In this document: piece after piece, positions 40,654 through 47,289 of the stretch
Layout of the letters: each line of letters begins with the position of its first letter
Numbering within the stretch: the stretch's first letter is position 1
DNA from: Acidimicrobiales bacterium
GTDB taxonomy: Bacteria; Actinomycetota; Acidimicrobiia; Acidimicrobiales; MedAcidi-G1
Direction of reading: 5' to 3'
Assembly (NCBI GenBank): GCA_022452145.1
Contig: JAKURY010000002.1
Location: 62,001-126,000 of the forward strand
Length of the DNA: 64,000 nucleotides
Notes under the pieces: model-generated
What the model was told of the DNA's origin: nothing
The model's database searches: none
What the model saw: only the letters and a program-made list of their open reading frames with translations
Made by a program: the position numbers and the translations under genes

Positions 40654-42006
40654 ATGGCAGGAGCAGGGGTCCCTCCAGCGGGCCTCCGATTCGGTACCGA
40701 TGGCGTACGCGCCCGTGCTGGCACGCGACTCGACGAACCGGTCGTCCGCGCCCTCGGGGCGGCCGCCGCAGGGTTTCTGGGGGCCGACCGGGTGTTCGTC
40801 GGCCGTGACACGCGGGAGTCCGGGCCGGGCCTGTCCCGGGCACTTGCGGAGGGGCTGTCCGCCGGTGGCCTGGACGTGGTGCAGATGGGCGTGGTCCCGA
40901 CACCGGCCGTTGCCCATGCCGCCGCCGCCGGCGCCGCCGCTGCCGCCATGGTCTCGGCGTCGCACAACCCGTGGCAGGACAACGGGGTCAAGCTGTTCTC
41001 GGCCGGAGGGTTGAAGCTGGACGATGCCGTTCAGGCCGCCGTGCAGGACGCCTGGGACACGACGCCCCGACTCGAGGACCCGGTCCCGGTCGACGGATGG
41101 TCGGACGAAGCATCCACCGAGGCCTCCCGCCACTGGGTGGACGCCGTGGTGGCGTCCGTGCGACCCGGAGCCCTGGCCGGTCTGGGCCTCGTCGTGGACT
41201 GCGCCAACGGTGCCACCTCGTCGTTGGCTGGCGGCGCGTTGGCCCGCCTGGGGGCCGACGTCACGGTGATCAACTCCGAACCCGACGGGCGGAACATCAA
41301 CGAGGGCTGTGGGTCGACCCGTCCCGGTGGACTGCAGGCCGCCGTGCTGGCCCTCGGGGCCGACGCCGGCCTGGCCCTTGACGGCGACGGCGACCGGGTG
41401 GTGGCCGTGGGCGACGACGGGAGGCTGCTGGACGGCGACGACCTGCTGGCCGTCTGTGGGGTGGACCGCAACGAGCGGGGAACCCTGCCCGGTTCCACGG
41501 TGGTGGTGACCGTCATGGCCAACCTGGGGCTCCGACGGGCTCTGGACGACCACGGGATAGCCGTCCACGAGACGGCGGTTGGCGACCGGTACGTGCTGGA
41601 GGCCCTGGAGGCCAACGGGTGGTCGCTGGGCGGCGAGCAGTCGGGACACGTGATCTTCCGGGACCTGGCCACGACGGGCGACGGCCTGCTCACCGGGATC
41701 CAGGCCCTCGACGCAGCCAGGCGGGCCGACCGGTCTCTGGGTGGTCGCGCGGCCGACCTGGTGGTCCGTGCCCCGCAGGTGCTGCATGCCGTCCCCGTGG
41801 TCGGCGACGCAGCGGCCCTGGTGGCGGTGCTGGCGGGCGAGATCGCTGCGGCCGCCGCGGATCTGGGTGATGCCGGACGGTTGCTGGTGCGTCCGTCTGG
41901 CACCGAACCGGTGGTGAGGGTGATGGTCGAGGCATTCGACGCGGGCACTGCGTCGGAGGTGGCCGGGCGCCTCGTTGAGGCTGTCGAGCGGGCTGACCGA
42001 ACCTGA
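40654..42006 (+). CDS. glmM: Phosphoglucosamine mutase
   Basis: 450 aa. Converts glucosamine-6-phosphate to glucosamine-1-phosphate for UDP-GlcNAc and peptidoglycan. N-terminal LRFGTDGVRA, phosphoserine motif SASHNP with the reactive Ser at residue 103, metal loop LDGDGDRVV, sugar-binding GGEQSGHVIF and the final phosphate loop RPSGTEPVVRVMVEA. It precedes the glmS-like gene by 77 nt, the usual pairing in actinobacteria. The start codon lacks a Shine-Dalgarno site (see the -10 box immediately upstream). Confidence 0.96.
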   Translation: MAGAGVPPAGLRFGTDGVRARAGTRLDEPVVRALGAAAAGFLGADRVFVGRDTRESGPGLSRALAEGLSAGGLDVVQMGVVPTPAVAHAAAAGAAAAAMVSASHNPWQDNGVKLFSAGGLKLDDAVQAAVQDAWDTTPRLEDPVPVDGWSDEASTEASRHWVDAVVASVRPGALAGLGLVVDCANGATSSLAGGALARLGADVTVINSEPDGRNINEGCGSTRPGGLQAAVLALGADAGLALDGDGDRVVAVGDDGRLLDGDDLLAVCGVDRNERGTLPGSTVVVTVMANLGLRRALDDHGIAVHETAVGDRYVLEALEANGWSLGGEQSGHVIFRDLATTGDGLLTGIQALDAARRADRSLGGRAADLVVRAPQVLHAVPVVGDAAALVAVLAGEIAAAAADLGDAGRLLVRPSGTEPVVRVMVEAFDAGTASEVAGRLVEAVERADRT

Positions 42007-42083
42007 GCCCGTAGAATTCCTAGAGTTGTCGCGCTGGCCGTCGAATCGGTTCGGCGGGACGGAAAGGGCAGAGACCAGGACAC

Positions 42084-45000
42084 ATGTGCGGCATCATCGC
42101 GGTCCTCCGCCGTCCCTCCGGTCGAGCCGTTCCCGGCTCCGACGACGTCCTCGCACCGCTCGTCGCCGCCGTGGACCTCCTGGGCACGGCGGATCCGTCC
42201 CGGCTGTCCGACGCCGCCGATCTGCTCGAGGGGGCTGACCGCCTGTTGGGCGGGGTTCCCGGACTCCTGGCCCTGGATCGGGATCCCTCGTTGGTGGGGC
42301 GCGTCACGGCCACCCTGGCCGTGGCTCCAAGGCTACTCGTCGGCTTCGAAGAGGTGCTCGGGGAGTCGACCGACGTGGAGGAGGCCAACGCCGCCCTGGT
42401 CCGGGTGCGGGACGCCCTGTGGTCCGTCACCCGGGACCGCCTTGGAACGCATGCGGGTGTGGCGTCCCTGCGCAGTGCGGCTCCCGCGCCCAGCGACGCC
42501 GGCCTGGCAGTGTTGCTGTCCACCCAGCAGGCCCTGTCGGCGATAGACCGCCTGGAGGTCCGCGGCCGGGATTCTGCCGGTCTCCAACTCACCCTTTGGG
42601 ACCACGGCCTCGATCCGGCCGACCCGGCGGTCGTGGCCCGCACGGCGGATCCCCTGCACCGCACGGGCAGCGTGCGGGTCCTGGACGGTGGCGGCCTGGC
42701 CTTCGTGGTGAAGGTGGCTGCCGAGATCGGTGAGCTGGGTGACAACACGGCGGCGCTACGCGGCGCCCTGGCCGCCGACGGGCTGCTGGCCCGGGCCCTG
42801 GCGGCACCGGCCGTCGAGGGATCGCTGCTGGGCCACACCCGTTGGGCCAGCGTGGGCCTCATCTCCGAACCCAACGCACACCCGCTGGACTCCACCCGGG
42901 CCGACGGCGAGCCGTCAGGCGTGGTCACGGCGGTCCAGAACGGGGACGTGGACAACCACGTCGACCTGGTGGTCGCGGAGGGCCTCAGCGTGGCGCCCGA
43001 GATCACCACCGATGCCAAGATCGTGCCCACCCTGTGTGCCGCCCACCTCGCTGCCGGCCACGACCACCGCGAGGCCTTCCGGCGGACCGTGAGCGTGATC
43101 GAGGGTTCGCTGGCGATCGGCGCGGTGGTCGGGGACGCTCCGGGCCGGCTCCTGCTGGCCCTGCGGGGAAGTGGCCAGGGCCTCTATGTCGGCCTGGCCG
43201 AGGACGCCTTCGTGGTGGCCAGCGAGCCCTACGGGGTGGTGGAGATGACCGGCCGGTACCTGCGGATGGAGGGCGAGACGCCAGCCGACCCGGCTGACCC
43301 GGCGGCCAGCAGGGGCCAGATCGTGGAGTTGGAGGCGGCCCTGGCCGGCACGGTCGAGGGGATCCGCCGCCGGTCCTACGACGGTCGGGACCTGCCGGTG
43401 GGTGGCGACGACCTGACCGGGGCGGAGATAACCACCCGTGACATTGACCGGGGCGACCACCCACACTTCCTGTTGAAGGAGATCGGCGAGTCCCCGGCGT
43501 CGGTCCGGTCCACCCTCCGGGGCCGTCTGGCGGGCGATGCCGCGGGTGGGTTCGAGGTCCGCCTGGGGGTGGCGTCGTTGGGCGAGGGCCTGCGCGCCGA
43601 CCTGGCTTCGGGGGCGATCCGTCGGGTGCTGGTGATCGGCCAGGGGACCGCCGCGGTGGCCGCGATGGCTGTGGCCAGGTCGCTGGCCGACGAGCTGGCC
43701 GGGTCGGGCATCGAGGTGGATGCCCTGCCGGCCACCGAGCTCTCGGGCTTCGGGCTCTCGCCGGACATGGCCGACGTCATGGTCGTGGCCATCAGCCAGT
43801 CGGGCACCACCACCGACACGAACCGCACAGTCGACCTGGTGCGGTCCCGCGGGGCCCGGGTGGTGGCCATCGTGAACCGTCGTAACAGCGACCTCGTGGA
43901 CCGGTCGGATGGCGTGCTGTACACGTCGGACGGCCGGGACGTCGAGATGAGCGTGGCCTCCACCAAGGCCTTCTACGCCCAGGCGGTGGCCGGCGTGCTG
44001 CTGGCCGTGGCGGTGGCCGACGCCGCCGGGCTGCCGGGATCACCGGAGCGGTCCGAGGTGCTGGCGGGCCTCCAGGGCCTGCCCGATGCCATGGACGACG
44101 TGCTGGCCATGCGGGACCGGATTGCCGAGATCGCCGAACGGCACGCTCCGGCCCGTCGCTACTGGGCGGTGGTGGGCAGTGGTCCGAACCTGACAGCGGC
44201 TCGGGAGATCCGGATCAAGCTCTCGGAGCTCTGCTACAAGTCGATCGCCGCGGATGCCACCGAGGACAAGAAGCACATCGACCTGTCGGCCGAGCCGATG
44301 ATCCTGGTGTGCGCCACGGGGCTGGTGGGCTCGACTGCCGACGACGTGGCCAAGGAGGTGGCCATCTACCGGGCCCACAGGGCCGCACCGGTGGTCGTCG
44401 CCGACGCAGGCTCGTCCCGGTTCGCCGGGGCTCTGGACGTCATCGCAGTACCGCAGGTCCACCCCAGCCTGGCCTTCCTGCTGTCGGCGATGGTCGGCCA
44501 CCTTTTCGGGTATGAGGCGGCCAGGGCCATCGACGCCCAGGCACGACCCCTCCGGAAGGCGCACGCGGCGATCGAGCACGAGGCGCAGCGACGCCAGTCC
44601 ACGGCCGCCGAGCCCGGCGAAGCGGCCGACGGCACCCTGCTGGAGGACCTCAGGGTGGCGGCATCCGCCTTCTTCGACGAACTGCGCAGCGGACGCCTGA
44701 ACGGCAACCTGGAGGCTTCTACCGCCGTGCGCCTCTCGACACACTTCCGGTTCGCCCTGGGCGACGTGCCGTTGGAGTCGTACCAGCTGGAGTTCGGACG
44801 GGTCGGGACACCGGCGCTGGTCCTGGACGACCTGGCCGCCTCGCTGACGGTGGCCATCGAGGAGCTCACCCGCCCCATCGATGCCATCAAGCACCAGGCC
44901 AAGACGGTGACCGTGGGTATCTCCCGTACCGACGAGACGCTCTTCGAGGCCCGCCTGGCCCGCGTGGTCTTGGACGCCGGCACCCCCCGGGACTCCCTCA

Positions 45001-45497
45001 GCTACCGGACGCTGCGTGTGCTGGTCGCCTTGGATCCGGCGGTGGCCGAGGTGGTGGGCTTCACCCGCTACCGGGTGGACGGGCTGGACGGACCTGTGCC
45101 CACGGTGGCGATCATGGACCGAGGTGGCGTGTCTATCGGGATCCCGTCGCGCACCGACCGCGATCCCACCCTGCGGGGCACCAAGCACCGCGTTGCCGTC
45201 GAGCGCGACGTGCTGGTGACTCGCGGTGCCCGCGACGACCGGACCATCGTGCTGGTCCCCGAGGTGAAGGACCGGGAGACGGTCGGCCTCACCCTGTTGC
45301 ACGTGGTGCTGCGTGATCGCCTGGCGCCGGACGTCCTGCGCGGCGTTCTCCAGGGGTACGACAACCGCTACGGCGCTGTGCGCGATGCCGTGTGCGAGAC
45401 CGAGCCCGACCTGCGCGACGACCTTCTGGCCGAGTTGCCCGTGGTGGACCTGCTGACCGAGCCGGTGCTGGTCGTAGCAGACCGGCTGCGGGACTGA
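42084..45497 (+). CDS. glmS: Giant GlmS-like glutamine-fructose-6-phosphate aminotransferase
   Basis: 1,137 aa, nearly twice the usual ~610 aa. It starts MCGIIAV, giving the N-terminal nucleophile Cys after Met removal. About 145 extra residues then intervene before RGRDSAGLQL (160-169). The glutaminase motifs HTRW (251-254) and QNG (285-287) follow. HFLLKEIGESP (461-471) leads into two SIS domains: SQSGTTTDT and STKAF (571-579, 626-630), then VGSGPN...EIRIKLSELCYKS (697-720). The canonical HGPLALI-type loop is replaced by EDKKHIDLSAEP. AKTVTVG (939-945), which resembles the GlmS C-terminal 'LAKSVTVE' end, is followed by ~190 further residues of unknown fold. Position after glmM argues that it is the cell's glucosamine-6-phosphate synthase, supplying glmM. 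Confidence 0.85.
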   Translation: MCGIIAVLRRPSGRAVPGSDDVLAPLVAAVDLLGTADPSRLSDAADLLEGADRLLGGVPGLLALDRDPSLVGRVTATLAVAPRLLVGFEEVLGESTDVEEANAALVRVRDALWSVTRDRLGTHAGVASLRSAAPAPSDAGLAVLLSTQQALSAIDRLEVRGRDSAGLQLTLWDHGLDPADPAVVARTADPLHRTGSVRVLDGGGLAFVVKVAAEIGELGDNTAALRGALAADGLLARALAAPAVEGSLLGHTRWASVGLISEPNAHPLDSTRADGEPSGVVTAVQNGDVDNHVDLVVAEGLSVAPEITTDAKIVPTLCAAHLAAGHDHREAFRRTVSVIEGSLAIGAVVGDAPGRLLLALRGSGQGLYVGLAEDAFVVASEPYGVVEMTGRYLRMEGETPADPADPAASRGQIVELEAALAGTVEGIRRRSYDGRDLPVGGDDLTGAEITTRDIDRGDHPHFLLKEIGESPASVRSTLRGRLAGDAAGGFEVRLGVASLGEGLRADLASGAIRRVLVIGQGTAAVAAMAVARSLADELAGSGIEVDALPATELSGFGLSPDMADVMVVAISQSGTTTDTNRTVDLVRSRGARVVAIVNRRNSDLVDRSDGVLYTSDGRDVEMSVASTKAFYAQAVAGVLLAVAVADAAGLPGSPERSEVLAGLQGLPDAMDDVLAMRDRIAEIAERHAPARRYWAVVGSGPNLTAAREIRIKLSELCYKSIAADATEDKKHIDLSAEPMILVCATGLVGSTADDVAKEVAIYRAHRAAPVVVADAGSSRFAGALDVIAVPQVHPSLAFLLSAMVGHLFGYEAARAIDAQARPLRKAHAAIEHEAQRRQSTAAEPGEAADGTLLEDLRVAASAFFDELRSGRLNGNLEASTAVRLSTHFRFALGDVPLESYQLEFGRVGTPALVLDDLAASLTVAIEELTRPIDAIKHQAKTVTVGISRTDETLFEARLARVVLDAGTPRDSLSYRTLRVLVALDPAVAEVVGFTRYRVDGLDGPVPTVAIMDRGGVSIGIPSRTDRDPTLRGTKHRVAVERDVLVTRGARDDRTIVLVPEVKDRETVGLTLLHVVLRDRLAPDVLRGVLQGYDNRYGAVRDAVCETEPDLRDDLLAELPVVDLLTEPVLVVADRLRD

Positions 45498-45521
45498 TCG
45501 GCCGACCGTGGTGCCTGGTCG

Positions 45522-45887
45522 ATGATCGGGATCGGCGTCGACCTGGTCGACATCGACCGCTTCCGGCGGTCGTTGGAGCGGACGCCGTCGTTGCGGGACC
45601 GGCTCTTCCGCCCCGCCGAGCGCGCCTACGCGGACGCCCACGTGGATCCGGCCGGGCGCTACGCGGTGCGCTTCGCCGTCAAGGAGGCAGCGCTCAAGGC
45701 ACTCGGGTTGGGCCTCGGGGGCATGGCCATGTTCGACATCGAGGTGGTGCGCGAGGGCCTGGGCCCGCCAGCCCTGGTGCTCCACGGGGCGGCGGCCGAG
45801 GTGGCGATGGAGGCCGGGGTGCGACGTTGGCTGGTGACGATGAGCCACACCGGACACCTGGCCCAGGCGACGGTTGTGGCCCTGTGA
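45522..45887 (+). CDS. acpS: Holo-[acyl-carrier-protein] synthase
   Basis: 121 aa, full length. Family motifs MIGIGVDLVDIDRF (Mg-binding Asp) and RYAVRFAVKEAALKALGLG (catalytic Glu). Transfers 4'-phosphopantetheine from CoA to acyl carrier protein. Located between the glmS-like gene and nnr, as in many actinobacteria. Confidence 0.95.
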   Translation: MIGIGVDLVDIDRFRRSLERTPSLRDRLFRPAERAYADAHVDPAGRYAVRFAVKEAALKALGLGLGGMAMFDIEVVREGLGPPALVLHGAAAEVAMEAGVRRWLVTMSHTGHLAQATVVAL

Positions 45888-45909
45888 GGCGGGGACCGGT
45901 CGTACGCCG

Positions 45910-47289
45910 ATGATTCCGGTCGTAACCCCGGAGGAGATGGCCTCCATCGACGCGGCGGCCCCCGAGCCCGTCGGGGTACTCGTGCAACGGGCCGGCAGCG
46001 CCGTGGCGCGCGGTGTGCTCGAGGTGCTGGGCGGGGCCTACGGCCGGCGGGTCGTCGTCGTGGCCGGCAAGGGTTCCAACGGCGCCGACGGGAGGGTGGC
46101 GGCGGCACGCCTTCGGCGTCGTGGTGTCCGGACCCTGGTGCTGGAGGCCACCGATGCGCCAGCCTCTCTGCCGGCCGACGGGATGCCTGCCATCGACTTG
46201 GTGGTCGACGCCGCCTACGGCACCGGCCTGGGTCGCCCGTACGTGGCGCCCACCACCGGTGTGCCGGTGCTGGCCGTGGACCTCCCCTCCGGGCTGGACG
46301 GCCTGACGGGCGTGGCCTGTGGCAGCCCGTCGGCAGCAGTTCGCACGGTCACCTTCGGGGCGCTCAAGCCTGGCCTTCTGTTCGCCGACGGACCAGCTTT
46401 GGCCGGTCGGATGGATGTGGCCGACATCGGCCTCGACGTGTCCGACGCATCCGTGCAGCTGGTCGAGGACGTCGACGTGGTCGACCTCGTGCCAGCCCGT
46501 CCTGACGACGCCCACAAGTGGCAGAGCGCCTGCTGGGTGCTGGCAGGGTCTGAGGGCATGCCGGGGGCGCCCGGGCTGGCCGCCGAGGCGGCCCTGCGGG
46601 CCGGTGCCGGCTACGTGCGCCTGTCGGTTCCCGGTGGAACGCCCGTCCCGACTCCCGTGGAGGTCGTCCAGGAGCCGGTCGGTCCCGACCTGTCGCTGGA
46701 CGCCTCCGACGCAGGTCGCTTTGCCGCGTTGGTCGTCGGACCGGGCGCGGGTGGCGACGATCGCACAGCCGTCGGCATTCGTCGCCTGGTGGCAGAGGTC
46801 GACCGTCCGCTGGTGGTAGACGGCGATGGCCTGACGGCGCTGGCCGCAGGCGACGTGGTCGGGATCTGTCGGGGTCGATCGGTGCCGGCGGTGCTCACGC
46901 CCCACGACGGCGAGTTCGAGCGGCTGGCCGGCGAGCGGCCCGGGTTGGACCGTATCGCTTCGGTTCGATCTTTTGCCGGACGCACCGGCGCGGTGGTCCT
47001 CTGCAAGGGGCCGACCACGGTCGTGGCGTCGCCCGACGGCCGGGTCCGCCTGGCCACGACCGGTGACCGGCGCCTGGCCACGGCGGGTACCGGCGACGTG
47101 CTGGCAGGCATCCTCGGGGCGTTCCTGGCCCGCGGGGCCGATCCGTTCGACGCTGCGGCTGCCGCAGCCCACGTGCACGGGCGGCTTGGCGTCCTCCTTC
47201 CACCCACCGGGGTGGTGGCGAGGGACCTGTCGGCCGGGCTGGTCGAGGTGCTCGTGGACCTGGGCGTCGACGGCAGGGGGCTGGCCTGA
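45910..47289 (+). CDS. nnr: Bifunctional NAD(P)H-hydrate epimerase / ADP-dependent dehydratase
   Basis: 459 aa from ATG 45910; a GTG-initiated extension back to 45874 would overlap acpS and is less likely. N-terminal YjeF_N epimerase domain (VVAGKGSNGADGRVAAARL, VVDAAYGTGL, VDLPSGLDG) and C-terminal ribokinase-like dehydratase domain (LTPHDGEFERLAG, VVLCKGPTTVVASPDG, TAGTGDVLAGILGAFLARG). Repairs NADH/NADPH damaged by hydration. The stop overlaps the alr ATG. Confidence 0.94.
   Translation: MIPVVTPEEMASIDAAAPEPVGVLVQRAGSAVARGVLEVLGGAYGRRVVVVAGKGSNGADGRVAAARLRRRGVRTLVLEATDAPASLPADGMPAIDLVVDAAYGTGLGRPYVAPTTGVPVLAVDLPSGLDGLTGVACGSPSAAVRTVTFGALKPGLLFADGPALAGRMDVADIGLDVSDASVQLVEDVDVVDLVPARPDDAHKWQSACWVLAGSEGMPGAPGLAAEAALRAGAGYVRLSVPGGTPVPTPVEVVQEPVGPDLSLDASDAGRFAALVVGPGAGGDDRTAVGIRRLVAEVDRPLVVDGDGLTALAAGDVVGICRGRSVPAVLTPHDGEFERLAGERPGLDRIASVRSFAGRTGAVVLCKGPTTVVASPDGRVRLATTGDRRLATAGTGDVLAGILGAFLARGADPFDAAAAAAHVHGRLGVLLPPTGVVARDLSAGLVEVLVDLGVDGRGLA

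Follow-up and report, generated by a model that had tools for sequence, protein, structure and literature searches.

In the stretch of DNA analyzed here (the window; 64,000 nucleotides of contig JAKURY010000002.1 from an Acidimicrobiales bacterium), a gene at positions 42084..45497 of the plus strand, the strand of all features described below, encodes from an ATG start a GlmS-like protein of 1137 amino acids. With a probability of about 0.82, this long GlmS is a working glucosamine-6-phosphate synthase and a divergent stand-in for canonical GlmS, the enzyme responsible for the first committed amino sugar in cell-wall synthesis. The assignment is based on the open reading frame, the conservation of the catalytic residues, a predicted model with the GlmS fold, the shared operon slot and the either/or distribution of the two forms. 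An earlier reading of the letters (the sequence-only reading) had proposed a GlmS-like enzyme of nearly double size, which is borne out by the comparison with the 599-620 amino acids of canonical proteins. Full-length relatives of 1105-1183 amino acids were found at 100 further loci (101 long proteins including that of the window), drawn from a scan with one genome per species (best 80 of 583 relatives) and from further genome searches. Since invariant residues occur in the added parts as well, these relatives argue that the long open reading frame is real, and neither a chance frame nor a fusion artefact. The 100 further proteins were selected by length, MCG start and RGRDS motif, and some possibly come from the same or near-identical organisms; L046 (an unread base in the motif) as well as L080 and L087 (partial) were excluded from the set, and L236, the longest frame of which did not look right, was not used in one further sequence set (A3). 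The alignment of the long proteins retained 89 of the 101 after an 88% identity filter.

The catalytic machinery of GlmS is kept throughout the family. Among 20 catalytic and substrate positions, 19 were invariant in all 101 long proteins and the remaining one was kept in 99, whereby the invariance of Cys2 follows from the selection, as an MCG start was required; L046, outside the set, agrees at all 20. In the E. coli numbering, the catalytic set kept in the 101 proteins comprises C1, R73, W74, N98, G99, D123, K485, E488, K503, H504 and K603. In the long form, the glutaminase residues R253, W254, N286, G287 and D310 and the isomerase residues K712, E715, K730 and H731 are invariant, and E. coli K603 corresponds to K940; the roles of these residues were partly taken from a study of human GFAT-1 (PMC7000685). 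Reading of the motifs confirmed the N-terminal Cys, HTRW and QNG noticed earlier. The statement that the HGPLALI-type loop is replaced was correct insofar as the loop reads EDKKHIDLSAEP, but it was overstated: the Lys-His pair (E. coli K503, H504) is present as K730-H731 in 101 of 101 proteins.

Furthermore, the AlphaFold model of the full-length protein (mean predicted local distance difference test score, pLDDT, 89.8; predicted template modelling score, pTM, 0.80) showed the GlmS fold of a glutaminase and a double SIS half, matching full-length chains at Z 40-42 with 593-615 residues aligned. The best structural match was human GFAT-1 (6svq_B; Z 42.1, 600 residues aligned, 3.5 A, model residues 2..942), and E. 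coli GlmS was matched over model residues 2..943 (2j6h_A; Z 40.4, 593 aligned). The glutaminase (GATase type 2) half, residues 1-449 (42084..43430), aligned with 1xff_A over model residues 2..449 (Z 31.3, 234 aligned), while the isomerase half with SIS1 and SIS2, residues 454-818 (43443..44537), matched human, Candida and E. coli isomerase domains at Z about 39-42. Pfam recognized a single SIS stretch (513-643) and a weak GATase_6 match (247-381) in the window protein; alignment and model place both SIS domains, as had been claimed. The long form has in common with canonical GlmS (TIGR01135, e.g., that of E. coli) the order glutaminase, SIS1, SIS2 and C-tail, the catalytic residues, the fold from residue 2 as far as about residue 943 and the operon slot after glmM.

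With respect to this slot, the gene before the long one is glmM in 91 of 100 loci; of the other nine, four begin near the end of their sequence, L030 has other sequence there, and L116, L117, L118 and L121 lie outside the class Acidimicrobiia. Canonical glmS follows glmM in 13 of 14 rows, a tally that includes one gene twice. The two forms occupy the same operon slot, so that the normal glmS position assumed in the sequence-only reading holds. Within the Acidimicrobiia, 81 of 198 surveyed genomes carried the long form (matches of at least 43% identity, including the fragment G158; 12 of the 81 partial or in pieces), 104 carried a glmS over the TIGR01135 cut-off, none carried both and 13 carried neither; the weak rows of this survey were listed in part, and identities were seen for many but not all of the canonical genomes. 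By family, 26 had only the long form, 19 only the canonical one and none was mixed, counts which do not represent independent events, as genomes of the class share ancestry. Eight of the 13 genomes with neither form belong to family f21 (60-87% complete), and G192 and G093 contained fragments below the cut-off. In the window genome itself (2.08 Mb, 95.07% complete), no match exceeded the TIGR01135 cut-off: the long gene was the best (204.8 bits), and two other matches (93.5 and 82.3 bits) covered profile positions 39-199 and 1-227 only, i.e., the glutaminase half. As this genome possesses murA (513.2 bits), the organism should need uridine diphosphate N-acetylglucosamine (UDP-GlcNAc).

The window genome is distributed over 46 contigs and incomplete, which leaves room for the explanation that the long gene is inactive and that sequence absent from the assembly holds a canonical glmS. 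We regard this as very improbable, given the invariant catalytic residues and the fact that none of the 81 long-form genomes of the class, among them six consisting of a single contig (G002, G003, G027, G110, G157 and G190), contained a glmS over the cut-off. The suggested survey for a second glmS of normal length thus returned none over the cut-off in the genome itself or in its long-form relatives within the class, and the proposed replacement of canonical GlmS by the long form receives good support from the operon slot, the content of its own genome, the absence of genomes with both forms (0 of 198) and the kept catalytic residues.

Outside the class, a profile of residues 821-1137 matched 32 of 396 genomes of the Actinomycetota, 31 of them strongly and G464 weakly (E 0.00135), with one match in each (at most five candidates scored per genome). 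Apart from G095, G203, G370 and G464, the frames had the length expected of a long GlmS, and no half-way form appeared. The long form occurred in four families outside the Acidimicrobiia, namely f52, f59, f79 and f82. In f82 the long gene is found away from the glmM operon, adjoining the genes of a peptidase M24 and RtcB in L117. All three genomes surveyed of its genus g183 (G292, G311 and G350) lacked a canonical-level match, and in the one genome of genus g209 (G331) a canonical glmS adjoins glmM. This gene placement, together with the absent canonical match in g183, looks like a horizontal acquisition after which the native gene was lost. Separately, some other actinobacterial genomes, for example G201, G273, G312 and G381 of family f50, which were not among the long-form matches, yielded weak GlmS matches only (best E 1e-9 to 1e-41).

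Several observations weigh against the long form as a synthase standing in for GlmS. Regarding the substrate pocket, the GFAT-1 study reports that Thr98 and His99 belong to the glutamine pocket and that Ser377 binds the sugar phosphate (PMC7000685). In all 101 long proteins the position of Thr98 is Ser, that of His99 is Val, Ile, Met or Phe, and that of Ser377 is Ala, a residue that 6 of the 42 canonical proteins likewise have at this last position; hence, the full set of GlmS substrate contacts is not present, and these three changes slightly lower the confidence in the synthase role. Moreover, the window protein scored below the curated cut-offs (TIGR01135, 210.8 versus 418.05 bits; NF001484, 235.8 versus 381 bits), as did 7 of 7 other long proteins scanned with the curated GlmS model, in which one canonical control reached 802.9 bits. 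Five of the 13 genomes of the class with neither form are 89-98% complete (G181, G054, G148, G192 and G183), which indicates that assemblies lacking the gene are not rare; completeness of the window genome is 95%. Finally, each of the families f52, f59, f79 and f82 also has members with canonical glmS, and one genome of f59 (G237) contains both forms; its long gene may be foreign, since this genome shows 5% contamination. In most of the computational tests applied, the protein behaves as a GlmS would. Because the curated cut-off was missed and three contacts are changed, we nevertheless do not assign it to TIGR01135 and describe it as belonging to a long GlmS-like family replacing GlmS.

The degree of divergence is considerable: over 600 core columns, the long proteins shared a mean identity of 28.6% (24.9-32.6%) with canonical GlmS, compared to 43.6% between canonical actinobacterial and haloarchaeal GlmS (19 long, 14 canonical and 2 haloarchaeal proteins). 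By sequence identity, the distance of the long form from canonical GlmS therefore exceeds that of haloarchaeal GlmS. Together with the changed loop around His504, the lost His99 equivalent and the Ala at the Ser377 equivalent, this distance would fit an enzyme with a different amino sugar phosphate as its product or a different donor of ammonia, with glucosamine-6-phosphate supplied from elsewhere. Such a function appears improbable in view of the either/or occurrence of the long gene and glmS at one operon position, the presence of murA and the conservation of the catalytic residues and of the other sugar-contact positions checked. In trees built from 19 of the 101 long proteins with either 42 canonical or 14 canonical and 2 haloarchaeal proteins, the rooting of which is unreliable, haloarchaeal and canonical proteins grouped together, and the branch to the long form measured 1.95 substitutions per site (3.28 without the archaea). 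An attachment of canonical GlmS inside the long clade, next to f24, was taken as long-branch attraction and discarded, the branch being too long for rooting. The sequences would be consistent with either an old separate lineage or a fast-evolving one.

Comparison with 42 aligned canonical GlmS proteins substantiated the three large extra stretches that had been noticed and revealed three small ones besides. The six stretches without counterpart are residues 13-145 (133 amino acids), 171-200 (30), 221-234 (14) and 399-411 (13), all within the glutaminase half, as well as residues 820-931 (112) and 945-1137 (193). The first, located between the Cys2 strand and the RGRDSAG segment (42120..42518), is helical in the model (helices 19-33, 38-55, 57-66, 68-78, 81-92 and 98-129), contains the residues G60, D110, W113 and D118, invariant in the 89 long proteins, and no Pfam match was found for residues 10-163. 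The insert at 820-931 (44541..44876), between SIS2 and the C-tail, showed helices in the full-length model and in a second model made of residues 821-1137. It is followed by the C-tail AKTVTV, residues 939-944 (44898..44915), the counterpart of the canonical AKSVTV end, and by the C-terminal extension, residues 945-1137 (44916..45494), in which 16 of 193 residues were invariant in the 89 proteins, among them G992, Y996, R1023, G1032, K1034, D1051, R1053 and Y1092. The profile search for a described domain family that had been proposed matched the added parts of the window protein to no Pfam family, and Pfam, NCBIfam and PADLOC scans yielded no described extra domain. Hence, the long form differs from canonical GlmS in its length, the six added stretches, about half the curated score, three pocket residues and a C-tail that is not at the chain end.

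The second model (pLDDT 94.6) showed a five-stranded alpha+beta domain after residue 957; in the full-length model, strands were located at 987-999, 1007-1015, 1044-1047, 1054-1062 and 1065-1076. Among the structural matches obtained with VIA, in whose lists the absence of a family does not exclude it, the first was 7jsr_A, the large glutamate dehydrogenase of M. smegmatis (residues 172-358; Z 8.9, 160 residues aligned, 4.3 A), followed at Z about 7 by GAF and sensor-kinase domains, which were interspersed with helical bundles matching the insert. The matched stretch of 7jsr is probably a PAS domain, judging from how Pfam domains are arranged in a relative, and the models suggest that the C-terminal domain is GAF/PAS-like in fold. 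Homology of this domain to the large glutamate dehydrogenase, although tempting by eye, was not supported by hhalign; this enzyme has another catalytic core, the matching domain is N-terminal in it, and there is no significant sequence homology. A PDB sequence profile search with the C-terminal part gave a single match at chance level (E 0.16), no viral structure matched the domain below 1e-3, and the C-terminal 317 amino acids had no match among plasmids or viral contigs. With Pfam, the C-terminal extension of the window protein matched no family, and the last part of the 89 relatives gave scattered weak matches, the best in 3 of 89 and none consistent.

Many GAF/PAS domains bind small molecules, and we tentatively propose that the C-terminal domain may serve as a sensor, a role for which the models make it a possible candidate. 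As inferred from GlmS chemistry, Cys2 would release ammonia from glutamine, which would reach the SIS half, where fructose-6-phosphate would be isomerized and aminated. In normal GlmS, the C-tail, which lies over the sugar site, forms the end of the chain. In GFAT-1, the C-loop covers the sugar pocket, as stated in the study (PMC7000685), and the chain, 687 amino acids in the solved structure, ends at this loop, unlike the long form, in which the QAKTVTV C-tail is not the chain end and runs on into the C-terminal domain. Because of this continuation and of a hinge of low pLDDT at 939-951, the only run of at least three residues below 50 in the full-length model, a ligand or partner could act directly on the C-loop: a small molecule or partner bound to the C-terminal domain would pull it open or shut, and the helical inserts 13-145 and 820-931 may shape assembly or relay the signal. 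Counting against a sensor, the Z of 8.9 is barely above the level reached by models without clear relatives, for which a best Z of 7 to 8 is typical, and the GAF/PAS-type domains among the Foldseek rows for the C-terminal model included none below E 1e-3. Likewise, hhalign against the large glutamate dehydrogenase was not significant (probability 2%, P 0.025, 14 columns), a wider hhalign comparison gave a probability of 0.3% at a different place, and no ligand site was identified in the C-terminal domain.

These findings leave a place for a rival of the sensor part only, in which the extra domains are purely structural, holding the oligomer together or binding a partner such as GlmM, and sense no metabolite. 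It draws on the helical nature of both large inserts, the small share of invariant C-terminal residues, the lack of an identified pocket and glmM as the usual neighbor, while the resemblance of the C-terminal fold to GAF/PAS domains, many of which bind small molecules, counts against it, and the f82 genes located away from glmM argue against the need for a co-encoded partner; we judge this rival a rather doubtful, still tenable account. The sequence-only suggestion of a regulatory or partner-binding module, which embraces both, is plausible in light of the models.

For GFAT-1, the reported regulation acts on the protein itself: UDP-GlcNAc binds to its isomerase domain (PMC7000685). Known bacterial control of GlmS acts mostly via partners, such as GlmR or RapZ with the small RNA GlmZ. 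The glmS ribozyme is another known bacterial control; in the window, no Rfam RNA was detected at 41500-46000 and thus no glmS ribozyme was found at the long gene. Placing the long form among these systems, one could picture a separate, deeply split GlmS lineage in which a metabolite sensor is wired to the C-loop, so that control would lie in one polypeptide and not in outside partners or RNA, and which in f82, perhaps also in f59, would have moved horizontally as a self-contained gene, displacing the native glmS in f82. Taken as a whole, this picture is somewhat doubtful. If true, the GlmS step would be controlled in a novel manner, by a sensor-like domain attached to the tail of the active site. 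The same operon slot holding either form in sister families offers a natural experiment, and, as the scores below the cut-offs imply, annotation by curated models could overlook glmS in many Acidimicrobiia and record it as absent. No description of a long or unusual GlmS, or of glmS in Acidimicrobiia, was found in the open-access literature, a search that did not cover subscription papers and other wordings; the accessible part of PMC12263773 does not mention glmS.

In the window, the long gene is flanked directly upstream by glmM (40654..42006; named by place and similarity, without a family scan) at a distance of 77 bases, and directly downstream, after 24 bases, by acpS (45522..45887; named by sequence, without a family scan).

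With regard to GlmU, matches listed for the order of the window organism look short, ending at about profile position 333-362 of 452, and two short GlmU open reading frames (L239 and L240) comprise 368 and 372 amino acids compared to 517 for the full one. No GlmU match better than 1e-17 was obtained in the window genome (G000) and in G169 and G187 of the same family, and none better than 1e-20 in 8 of 51 genomes of the order; with the short GlmU as query, the seven of those eight genomes that were searched gave only matches of 25-32% identity. A link between the long form and loss of the GlmU acetyltransferase part was considered and rejected: in families f27 and f28 the long GlmS occurs alongside GlmU matches that are mostly full-length, and in f5 short GlmU matches accompany canonical GlmS. 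As to the public records, some metagenome-assembled genomes carrying the long glmS (L031, L058, L059, L061, L077 and L080) are named Dehalococcoidia, Bifidobacterium breve, Acidobacteria or Thermoanaerobacterales; because their sequences are close to those of Acidimicrobiia, these taxon names are suggested to be wrong.

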